From NCBI RefSeq assembly GCF_015350905.1, contig NZ_JADKRZ010000001.1:1-64000 (forward strand): a stretch of 64,000 bases of DNA, given 5' to 3'. Made by a program: the position numbers and the translations under genes. Below the pieces are notes generated by a model, which saw only the letters and a list, made by a program, of their open reading frames with translations, was not told the DNA's origin and searched no databases. This stretch comes from Curtobacterium sp. VKM Ac-2865 (GTDB lineage: Bacteria; Actinomycetota; Actinomycetes; Actinomycetales; Microbacteriaceae). Positions 36,713 to 39,117 of this stretch are shown here, piece after piece. Each line of letters begins with the position of its first letter. Position 1 is the stretch's first letter.

Positions 36713-37648
36713 TCACGCGGAGAGGGTGACGCTGCGCACGACGAAGCGCGGGACCTCCACGGCGAGCGTCGCGCGGCAGGTCGTGTACGTCGCGGCGGTC
36801 CGCACCCGCTCGAGGTCGACGCGCACGCGGCGTCCGTCGGTGTCGAGGTCGACGGACCAGTCGGTGCCGTCCATCGTCGGCTCGGACACCGACAGCGGCC
36901 GGAACGCGTCGATCCGGTCGTCCCCGGTCTCGGCGACGGCGGCCGCGACCGCTGCCTGTTCGACGTGCGTGTGCGTCGACCGACCACGGAACCCGAGGGG
37001 GGCGACGCGGCCGCGCAGGTACTGCTCGGCGATGACGACGGGGTCGTGCTCGTCGACGCGGCCGTGGTTCAGCCCGTGCGGGAACACCATCGTCGTCGCT
37101 GCGAACCGGTCGCCGCCGAGGTGGGAGCACTCCCACGTCTCGTCGGGGTAGGCGGCAGCGAGCCGCTCCACGACCGAGCGACCACGGACCGCGCAGCACT
37201 CGTCGTGACGGCCGTGGGCGCACACGGCGAACACGGGTCGGTCGGACAGCTCGCCCGTGCTGCCGTCGAGCGGGAGCGTCAGGAGCGCCTCGGGACCGTC
37301 GACCTCGCCCCAGCGCACCGTCGGCTGGTCGGCGTCGGCGTCGACCACGGCCCACCGCCAGCGTCCGGCACCGCGGAGCCGCCCGGTCCGGCGGATCGCG
37401 AGGATGCGCATGCCGGCACGCTGGGCACGCCGCGCCAGGGCGGTGCCGATCTCGGGCGGGAGCGCCGGCGACTGCGTCCAGACGTCCCAGCCCCAGGCGC
37501 TCGCGACCTCGACGAGCAGCCAGCGCCGCCCCGGGGAGGCGGTGGCCACGAGGTCCTCGTCGCTCGCCCGGGACCGCACGCTGCACGCCGGACCGCCCCG
37601 GGAGCGGGGCGGTCCGAGCGCAGGGCCCGTTCGGCGCCACTCGGTCAC
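36713..37648 (-). CDS. Sucrase/ferredoxin-like protein (thioredoxin-fold [2Fe-2S] candidate)
   Basis: The 311-residue protein carries the sucrase-ferredoxin family signature CAHGRHDECCAVRGR (C143, C151, C152) and, after a strand, WECSHLGGDRFAAT (C174), in a thioredoxin-like ferredoxin fold; one Cys also lies near residue 22. Such proteins may hold a [2Fe-2S] cluster and carry electrons. The GTG start overlaps the stop of the JmjC-type oxygenase gene (GTGA), so it is the last gene of the peptide-oxygenase-ferredoxin operon and a candidate redox partner. Its own function is uncharacterised. Confidence 0.8.
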   Translation of the reverse strand: MTEWRRTGPALGPPRSRGGPACSVRSRASDEDLVATASPGRRWLLVEVASAWGWDVWTQSPALPPEIGTALARRAQRAGMRILAIRRTGRLRGAGRWRWAVVDADADQPTVRWGEVDGPEALLTLPLDGSTGELSDRPVFAVCAHGRHDECCAVRGRSVVERLAAAYPDETWECSHLGGDRFAATTMVFPHGLNHGRVDEHDPVVIAEQYLRGRVAPLGFRGRSTHTHVEQAAVAAAVAETGDDRIDAFRPLSVSEPTMDGTDWSVDLDTDGRRVRVDLERVRTAATYTTCRATLAVEVPRFVVRSVTLSA

Positions 37649-38892
37649 GGGACGGGTACCAGGACGCCTTCCCGGAGGAGCCGACGGACCACGACGACGG
37701 CGTCGTCCTCGTCGAGCGCGGGGAGTGCCCCGACGGCGAACGTCCCGCCGCCGTGCAGCGCCCGGACCGCCGCGAGTGCCACGGCAGGCAGCCGGACCGT
37801 CTTCGTCGGGAGCACGATGACGACCTGGTCGCCTTCTTCCCGCACGGCGGCGTGCAGTTCGTCGCGCCAGCGCACCTGGACGGCCCCGGTCAGGGCCGCG
37901 GCGACCTCGACCGTGTGCAGCGGGCGGACCGGCTTCGGACGGGTCGACCGGCGGAACCGGGACCCGACCCGCACCGCGACCTCGTCCACGGCGGAGCCGT
38001 CGGCTGCACCCTGGAGGGAGGCGATGAGGTCCTCCGCCGCGGCACGGACGTCGTCGGCGATCTGTGCCGGGTCGGCGAGGTCGATGCCGAGCGGCAACGA
38101 GGCACGCAGCCGGTCCGACCGGAGCGCACGACCGATGAGGTCCCGCGCCAGGTCGGCCCGGGTGACGGCCGGCATGCCGATCGTCAGGTGGATCGTGGTG
38201 CCGACCAGTGCCGTCGCCGAGTGCAGCCACCCGCGCGGCAGGTACAGGGCGTCGCCGGGGGAGAGCACGGTGTCGATGGCGGGTTCCCCGGTGGCGCGAG
38301 CGGCCACCGCGTCACGTCGGTCGCCCCACGGCTCGTCGGCGAAGGGCAGCTCGTGGACGGGTTCGTGGATGACCCAGCGCTTCTGGCCCGCGATCTGCAG
38401 CACGAACACGTCGTGCACGTCGTAGTGGGGGTCGAAGCCGCGGGACGACGCCGGGGTGATGTAGGCGTTGACCTGGGCGGGGTGTCCGAGCTCGGCGACG
38501 AGCCGGCGGGTGAACTCCTGCAGCGGCGGCCAGGTGCGGTGCAGCCCCTGGAGCACGATCGTCGACCCGGCGGCGAACTCGGCCAGCACCTTCTCGGAGC
38601 TGACCTGGTCACCGACCTCGGCACCGTAGCCGCCCGGCGCGGTGAAGGCACCGGGCGACAGGACCGAGCCCTCCTTCGCCATCCTGATGAACGGCGTGCG
38701 GAGCCCCCGGACCGAGAGCAGCTCGTCGGCGGCCTCGGTGGAGAAGAGGTCGTCGAACGTGGTGCCGAGGTCAGCGGCACTGCTCAGCAGCGCGCGCTTG
38801 CCCCAGTGGTCCGCGGCGAACTCCGCGACGGAGACGGCGATGCACCGGTCGAGGGCGCTCACCGTCTCCGTCGTGTCGGGTCCTCGACTCAC
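37645..38892 (-). CDS. JmjC/Cupin_4-type Fe(II)/2-oxoglutarate oxygenase
   Basis: The 415-residue protein has the double-stranded beta-helix core with metal-binding H156-x-D158 (in FDPHYDVHD) and distal H224 (RGWLHSA), and the W/G-rich strand QKRWVIHEP. A C-terminal winged-helix-like region (~330-415) matches the layout of ribosomal oxygenases (YcfD/NO66/MINA53 group), which hydroxylate His or Arg side chains. Its GTG start overlaps the stop of the small repeat peptide gene by 4 bp, so the peptide is a plausible substrate. Ribosomal protein hydroxylation remains an alternative. Confidence 0.82.
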   Translation of the reverse strand: MSRGPDTTETVSALDRCIAVSVAEFAADHWGKRALLSSAADLGTTFDDLFSTEAADELLSVRGLRTPFIRMAKEGSVLSPGAFTAPGGYGAEVGDQVSSEKVLAEFAAGSTIVLQGLHRTWPPLQEFTRRLVAELGHPAQVNAYITPASSRGFDPHYDVHDVFVLQIAGQKRWVIHEPVHELPFADEPWGDRRDAVAARATGEPAIDTVLSPGDALYLPRGWLHSATALVGTTIHLTIGMPAVTRADLARDLIGRALRSDRLRASLPLGIDLADPAQIADDVRAAAEDLIASLQGAADGSAVDEVAVRVGSRFRRSTRPKPVRPLHTVEVAAALTGAVQVRWRDELHAAVREEGDQVVIVLPTKTVRLPAVALAAVRALHGGGTFAVGALPALDEDDAVVVVRRLLREGVLVPVP

Positions 38893-39074
38893 GCGGAGCC
38901 GTCCGCGCCGCCGTCGTGGCCGTTCGGGTTGGCGCCGCCGTCTGCGGGGCCTTCGCCGGCGTCCGCGGAGCCGTCCGCGCCGCCGTCGTGGCCGTTCGGG
39001 TTCGCGCCGCCGTCAGCGGGGCCTTCGCCGGCGTTCTGGGTGTCCGTCGTGATGTCGTCGTCGTTGATGCTCAT
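38889..39074 (-). CDS. 61-residue acidic repeat peptide, candidate precursor (RiPP-like)
   Basis: A 14-residue acidic leader (MSINDDDITTDTQN) is followed by two identical 24-residue repeats, each containing AGEGPADGG, NPNGHDGG and ADGSA; the second lacks its last Asp. The two 72-bp DNA repeats differ at only three positions, all silent. The peptide lacks Cys and Lys and is rich in Gly, Asp, Asn and Ala with one His per repeat. GGGAG lies 5 nt before the ATG. The stop overlaps the oxygenase GTG. No homology is claimed; precursor status is inferred from size, leader-plus-repeat layout and operon position. Confidence 0.7.
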   Translation of the reverse strand: MSINDDDITTDTQNAGEGPADGGANPNGHDGGADGSADAGEGPADGGANPNGHDGGADGSA

Positions 39075-39117
39075 GGAGCTCCCTCTCGTCAGTCGGCCGG
39101 AGTGCCGTCTGAGCCCG

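Follow-up and report, generated by a model that had tools for sequence, protein, structure and literature searches.

What does a JmjC-type oxygenase act on when its gene overlaps that of a small peptide made of a short leader and two Gly/Asp-rich repeats? The question is raised by a three-gene operon at positions 36,713 to 39,074 of the window, that is, of the whole 64,000-nucleotide stretch of Curtobacterium sp. VKM Ac-2865 that we analyzed (positions 1 to 64,000 of contig NZ_JADKRZ010000001.1, assembly GCF_015350905.1). A preliminary description, made from the sequence alone, had taken the peptide as the substrate of the oxygenase, an NPNGHD motif in each repeat as the target, and the product of the third gene, a ferredoxin-like protein, as the source of electrons. 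Here we report that the pairing of peptide and oxygenase across genomes is not due to chance; because the two are so strictly paired, the peptide is very probably a substrate of the adjoining oxygenase. Our results suggest an undescribed family of oxygenase-modified Gly/Asp-rich repeat peptides in actinobacteria.

Layout of the operon

The three genes lie on the minus strand in the order peptide, oxygenase, ferredoxin-like protein, and each junction is a GTGA, a 4-bp overlap. The overlapping layout first described was correct in its coordinates and frames. The features are:

39074..38889, minus strand: precursor-like peptide of 61 residues, leader plus two tandem repeats, ATG start; homologues lie upstream of the oxygenase
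39033..39074, minus strand: leader of the peptide, residues 1-14, MSINDDDITTDTQN, acidic and short
38961..39032, minus strand: repeat 1, residues 15-38, 24 residues, AGEGPADGGANPNGHDGGADGSAD
38892..38960, minus strand: repeat 2, residues 39-61, 23 residues, equal to repeat 1 minus its final D, then the stop
39081..39088, minus strand: ribosome-binding-like GAGAGGGA before the peptide ATG
38892..37645, minus strand: JmjC_2 oxygenase of 415 residues, GTG start; PF08007, Fe(II)/2-oxoglutarate (2OG) type
37654..37878, minus strand: C-terminal winged-helix domain of the oxygenase, residues 339-413, from the secondary structure of a predicted model
37648..36713, minus strand: sucrase/ferredoxin-like protein of 311 residues, GTG start; PF06999

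The core common to both units is AGEGPADGGANPNGHDGGADGSA(D). They had been described as two identical 24-residue repeats; their residues are indeed identical over 23 positions, with two synonymous base differences over the 23 shared codons, but the second unit has 23 residues, not 24. The leader contains the motif M-S-I-N-D-D-D-I-T-T, and close relatives share M[AS][IL][ND]DDDITT. The peptide has no match in Pfam or NCBIfam, and NCBIfam holds no family for any of the three operon proteins, nor for five further peptides.

Peptide and oxygenase genes occur as a pair

We assembled a close set from the best 80 of at least 568 confirmed oxygenase relatives in named genomes, so that it represents the closest relatives and not a random sample. 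An automatic scan found the peptide at 76 of these 80 loci, and after inspection of the other four it was found at 79 of 79 judgeable loci. At L043 the peptide is present with a run of N in its repeats, at L050 its leader lies past the contig end, and at L086 (Mycolicibacterium pyrenivorans) it is split over two frames by a frame change inside the repeats; L116, which starts 111 bases before the oxygenase match, was left out of the judgeable loci. The L086 frame change may reflect an error of sequencing or assembly, or else a true loss. L077 was considered as a broken oxygenase and dismissed, the stop being the peptide's own, inside the stretch.

The pairing extends to the class. Among 394 genomes, the oxygenase profile (E 1e-10) matches 131 and the peptide profile (E 1e-6) matches 49, all of them among the 131, and every one of the 49 peptides lies at most 400 bases upstream of the oxygenase on the same strand (one match per genome was counted, and three second matches were set aside). 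The hypergeometric chance of this overlap alone is 2.7e-27, a figure that ignores shared ancestry. Within the genus, 8 of 60 genomes carry the oxygenase and the same 8 carry the peptide; the window's oxygenase is 93-95% identical to that of three named Curtobacterium genomes, and relatives at this level of identity carry three repeats where the window has two, a difference that may stem from collapse of the repeats during assembly. A search of 99 relatives gave the oxygenase in 19 (in G088 only by a C-terminal piece) and, with a single sequence as query, the peptide in 9, each with the oxygenase. More divergent peptides stand at the oxygenase loci L009-L011, L013, L015, L017 and L018, and the L016 locus starts at a contig end. 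Genera with the pair range from Curtobacterium to Mycobacterium and Rhodococcus, and soil Cellulomonas are among the carriers of the operon. The association has the form expected of a ribosomally synthesized and post-translationally modified peptide (RiPP), namely a precursor gene adjoining that of a modifying enzyme, the two being conserved together (49 of 49 class genomes, 79 of 79 judgeable close loci). The genome search that the preliminary description had proposed finds the pair recurring with a varying number of repeats, mostly three, and two in the window. That description had also named loss of the peptide from relatives that keep the oxygenase as what would contradict it; no such case appeared in the close family, and a clear peptide is absent only at much more distant JmjC_2 genes.

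The peptide composition is high in G+C and low in complexity, as might be expected if the open reading frame (ORF) were a compositional artefact or a regulatory leader with no functional product. The data leave such a reading a negligible probability. A six-frame count over 836,477 bases from 80 related loci gives the word DGGADG 228 times in the stretch directly before the oxygenase and a single time in all the rest, and when that stretch was put through 1560 dinucleotide shuffles, no shuffle placed two such words in one frame. Between repeat units of the same gene we counted 1057 synonymous and 203 nonsynonymous codon differences (unit pairs are not independent); this excess of synonymous changes suggests that selection acts on the peptide sequence. 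On the synonymous bias, together with the DGGADG counts and shuffles, we reject a chance ORF. Moreover, the peptide is found across many genera, and purine-rich stretches like GAGAGGGA precede its start in most of the relatives listed, as judged by eye.

Alternatively, the oxygenase could act on a ribosomal or other cell protein, with the peptide as a cofactor, chaperone or sensor (of oxygen, iron or 2OG). Its JmjC_2 relatives NO66, MINA53 and YcfD act on ribosomal proteins, according to the titles of their Protein Data Bank (PDB) entries, and the operon has no recurring protease or exporter alongside. However, strict pairing with a varying number of repeats is more readily explained by a multi-site substrate than by a cofactor, and a pair confined to 8 of 60 genus genomes would be odd for ribosome modification. 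We consider this alternative quite improbable. The strictness of the genomic pairing gives strong support to the peptide as a dedicated substrate, as first proposed.

The predicted fold of the oxygenase resembles NO66 and MINA53 over its whole length

The oxygenase matches the Pfam family JmjC_2 (PF08007) with an E value of 6.3e-27 and 94.1 bits (cut-off 22), and Cupin_8 with 5e-10. The H156/D158/H224 triad of iron ligands, described from the window alone as intact, is invariant in alignments of 15 and of 48 sequences, and so is K171, by its role in the family a candidate for the 2OG-binding Lys. The predicted model has a mean pLDDT (predicted local distance difference test) of 91.3. Along its full length it can be superposed with NO66 (Z 29.8, root mean square deviation 4.7, 387 residues, 25% identity) and with MINA53 (Z 27.5, 22% identity), and the next folds are those of Bacillus subtilis YxbC and Escherichia coli YcfD, with Z of about 19.5. 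The whole NO66/MINA53-type fold, including the C-terminal winged helix, would thus be present, with predicted strands of the winged helix within residues 339-369 and helices at 370-380 and 395-407. This domain could bind the leader, a proposal to which we give an even chance; as NO66/MINA53-type enzymes share it, the winged helix does not by itself establish a RiPP recognition element (RRE).

Asp as the candidate target of hydroxylation

To count repeat units we used a fixed pattern in which most Asp and Gly positions were preset, the His place could be H or A, the preceding Gly G or S, and Asn was free. Of the 80 close loci, 67 have three units, 8 have two, 2 have one and 3 have none (L116, L117 and L118, of which L117 and L118 carry GGAD variants). 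The pattern's three open positions are nearly constant in the 219 units of this close subfamily: Asn in 217, Gly in 218 and His in 217. In Dietzia, L095 and L107 each have Ala for His in one repeat, the last (NPDGADGGADG), which provides a natural test of the role of His.

For a wider view, 60 fetched stretches were combined with 28 loci into a set of 88 oriented loci, a selection from the oxygenase-profile matches, and the ORF before each of the 88 oxygenases was read (start codons, some of them uncertain, were assigned with a simple rule). We define as the main family the 58 loci with a profile score of at least 314, and as the distant set the 30 loci below it. A script sorted the main family into 44 peptides of GGAD type, 9 of other Asp-rich types and 5 unsorted; the final sorting, partly by eye, gives 47 GGAD-type, 9 other Asp-rich and 2 nonrepeat acidic peptides. 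By eye, L150, L158 and L159 were re-sorted as plain two-unit HDGGADG peptides, L161, with 81 residues, as a run of GGAD, and L184 as one of the other Asp-rich peptides. Among the other Asp-rich repeats we find the types DGTD, DPAGSD and DADTTD, and L170 is weakly repetitive. The acidic start D-D-x-[IM] was found in 23 of the 44 script-tested peptides, and in the close subfamily visual inspection shows the leader motif clearly.

In 9 of the 47 GGAD-type peptides (L126, L127, L132, L142, L146, L151, L155, L156 and L161), His is absent after residue 14; six of these have no His at all, while L127, L132 and L142 retain one at the edge of the leader, and some of the His-less peptides are pure GGAD runs. 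Asn is absent after residue 8 in 31 of the 47 as read by script, or in 30 when the longer true frame of L126 is used. All 47 contain Asp, no fewer than 10 per peptide in the script's reading, and it is the residue common to all repeat types, usually before Gly. NPNGHD, the target first proposed, thus persists across the close subfamily, whereas many of the wider relatives have lost it. We rejected it as a general target, with His or Asn missing in many GGAD-type peptides, and kept it as a rival for the close subfamily. Because NPNGHD is lost while the oxygenase and the Asp-Gly repeats persist, Asp is the better candidate: these patterns incline us, by a little, to Asp, repeated along the peptide, as the main site of hydroxylation.

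The rival would have the oxygenase hydroxylate a single His per repeat, in the way that NO66 and MINA53 modify ribosomal proteins, with Asp serving only the shape or function of the repeat. The nearest folds are those of histidine hydroxylases, and His is kept in nearly all close-subfamily units under a pattern that would have admitted Ala. The nine peptides with His-free repeats, the two Dietzia repeats with Ala and the His-free DGTD or DPAGSD repeats of further relatives all argue the other way, and we hold hydroxylation of His alone to be improbable.

The third gene

The third protein matches Suc_Fer-like (PF06999) with 2.4e-14 and 54.3 bits (cut-off 34.9), in agreement with its first description as sucrase-ferredoxin-like, and C143, H145, H148, C151, C152 and H176 are invariant in 34 sequences. 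Its assignment to the Suc_Fer-like/ferredoxin group comes from this match and from the conserved Cys and His residues, the fold part being weaker: the best Foldseek match of the predicted model (pLDDT 88.4) is a thioredoxin-like [2Fe-2S] ferredoxin of Aquifex, at E 0.04 and probability 0.99, with no match at or below 0.001. The gene lies downstream at 72 of the 80 close loci and 47 of the 58 main-family loci, and beside none of the 30 distant ones. Its profile (E 1e-25) matches 197 of the 394 class genomes, which implies further roles for the wider family; among the matches listed, the best-scoring places adjoin the oxygenase, as judged by eye. In G142, G159, G174 and G187 the single match lies elsewhere in the genome, away from the oxygenase, and G189, G212 and G289 have peptide and oxygenase with no match to the third protein at E 1e-25.

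2OG oxygenases are not known to require such an electron donor for normal turnover. As regards the proposal that this protein donates electrons, the predicted fold lends a ferredoxin domain modest support, and the gene is absent from 8 of the 80 close loci and 11 of the 58 main-family ones and was found beside none of the 30 distant ones, which weakens the case for an obligatory donor. With the fold support modest and the gene missing at these close and main-family loci, it looks accessory; a redox role is conceivable, if somewhat doubtful.

Genomic surroundings and the distant relatives

We examined a hand-chosen set of the 74 nearest flanking proteins at 39 of the 80 close loci (genes were predicted by a simple G+C rule, and some may be wrong). 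They spread over 102 Pfam families, none found in more than 5, so the unit seems to consist of two or three genes in varied surroundings. No fourth gene recurs among the nearest flanking genes. Plasmid carriage was considered and set aside: 34 plasmid records match, none covering 80% of the oxygenase, and the distant plasmid relatives, where annotation was seen, are called merely "cupin domain-containing protein." Upstream of the peptide start, the spaced motif GTTT-N15-17-G[GT][TCG]AA[CT] occurs in 24 of 77 stretches, with about 0 expected under mononucleotide shuffling, including the Mycobacteriales loci L068, L078, L086, L093 and L101; it was first spotted by eye on the same data, and the count is post hoc. 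This motif is perhaps a promoter.

Many of the 30 distant loci have other short acidic peptides. At least 9 have no clear peptide (L175, L177, L180, L185, L188, L189, L195, L205 and L208), so our method does not find such peptides everywhere. A conserved short peptide of the type MDPxEVEVEDLAEVTSRDxTAGGDSDGTDSSSDFI precedes the distant JmjC_2 genes at L183, L186-L187, L190-L194 and L196-L197 and is likely a second JmjC-linked peptide family. At L198-L203, the upstream peptides end near SDGND, SDLND, SDMND or TDTND and have a basic stretch such as GLLIAKRKIVAAR. Peptides of the type DDLVVAVETLASVQDRxDxxxSDSDGSDG precede JmjC_2 genes that are more distant still (L204, L206 and L207). Finally, the peptide MAETKTLKMDEIQVETAPAADPQFLICDPDPSDDCWIVCNPNYCY upstream of the JmjC_2 gene of L174 is of another RiPP-like type, and the end of the L176 ORF is distantly similar to it.

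Proposed pathway

Taken as a whole, the data are best explained, in our moderately confident judgment, by a minimal RiPP-like pathway with repeated hydroxylation of Asp. The peptide would be translated with a short acidic leader ahead of its Asp-Gly-rich repeats. The NO66/MINA53-like oxygenase would hold the leader, perhaps through its C-terminal winged helix, and would hydroxylate side chains of the repeats with Fe(II), 2OG and O2, the likeliest sites being the Asp of A-D-G/H-D-G words, several per peptide. The ferredoxin-like protein could be an accessory redox partner that keeps the iron reduced or performs a follow-up step. The product would most likely be a poly-hydroxyaspartyl peptide, retained within the cell or close to it. 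A metal-binding role for it is our first, tentative guess. Less likely still is the fuller version of this guess, in which (GGAD)n-type peptides form a widespread actinobacterial class converted by a NO66-like oxygenase, without a dedicated leader protease or exporter, into a poly-hydroxyaspartyl chelator or store of metal inside the cell.

Several observations weigh against this pathway. L135 (the same place as L014) and L149 are main-family oxygenases without a repeat peptide; each has instead a nonrepeat acidic ORF ending in DDPEL-GADL-EDQ--G-GPT-EPGA, without a downstream ferredoxin-like gene. The paralogues L020 and L022, 33% identical, show no peptide either. His is kept in 217 of 219 close-subfamily units, and the PDB titles of the nearest solved structures, NO66 and MINA53, describe histidine hydroxylases. 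None of 48 oxygenases matches the RRE-type PqqD (PF05402). The nearest flanking genes have no protease or exporter in common, unlike those of many RiPP clusters. Lastly, upstream scores for consensus IdeR/DtxR, Zur and FurA boxes were no better than those of shuffles, so that metal control is unsupported.

Comparison with known systems

The preliminary description knew of no RiPP class with this combination of genes. None was found in the open-access literature, where no paper contains the peptide words tried (subscription papers and preprints were outside the scope of the search) and none pairs "cupin" with "sucrase ferredoxin"; JmjC and cupin-like RiPP hydroxylases as such are known. The JmjC hydroxylase BipG is reported to introduce +16 Da at a core residue of a RiPP precursor (PMC12707348), and the cupin-like hydroxylase PbsQ to act on a RiPP precursor as well (PMC12257519). 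These biphenomycin-type systems (BipG, BpmG, PbsQ) resemble ours in that a JmjC or cupin-like oxygenase is encoded with a precursor peptide. As described there, BipG and PbsQ hydroxylate ornithine, in clusters with a multinuclear nonheme iron-dependent oxidative enzyme (MNIO), a B12 radical S-adenosylmethionine enzyme and an arginase-type step, whereas here we see just the peptide, oxygenase and ferredoxin-like genes, and Asp-Gly repeats.

Winged-helix domains like RREs are reported fused to PF08007 JmjC proteins, the closest bacterial homologues of which lie in RiPP-like contexts (PMC12710340). The fusions are fish and algal proteins and the bacterial ones are about 30% identical; the section of that paper on these proteins names no GGAD peptides. 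Where it calls the JmjC homologues RiPP-contextual, it cites a 2025 paper that, by its title, concerns RiPP macrocyclization by an alpha-ketoglutarate dioxygenase, and the oxygenase of our operon might likewise perform some oxidation other than simple hydroxylation, such as a desaturation, crosslink or macrocycle. Hydroxylation by BipG and PbsQ speaks against this, and we think it distinctly improbable. Beta-hydroxylation of Asp in a RiPP has a precedent in SmaO, as cited in PMC13097080. As for function, bufferins are metal-binding RiPPs modified by MNIOs (PMC12452194); the two cases share the idea of a metal-buffering ribosomal peptide, but the enzymes differ, and for our peptide the metal role is a guess.

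Precursors that carry several core repeats are a general kind among RiPPs. Our peptides share with them a leader, tandem repeats and one modifying enzyme next door, and differ in that no protease or transporter recurs among the nearest genes. If Asp is indeed hydroxylated, a multi-site 2OG hydroxylase and a new repeat-peptide product would be added to RiPP chemistry, and a large set of JmjC_2 enzymes gains a testable, genetically encoded substrate. With NO66 and MINA53 the predicted likeness covers the JmjC core, the helical part and the C-terminal winged helix. Their substrates are the ribosomal proteins L8 and L27A, by PDB titles, whereas the substrate here is probably the small peptide of the adjoining gene; should Asp hydroxylation hold, these human ribosomal oxygenases would be linked to bacterial peptide-modifying enzymes.

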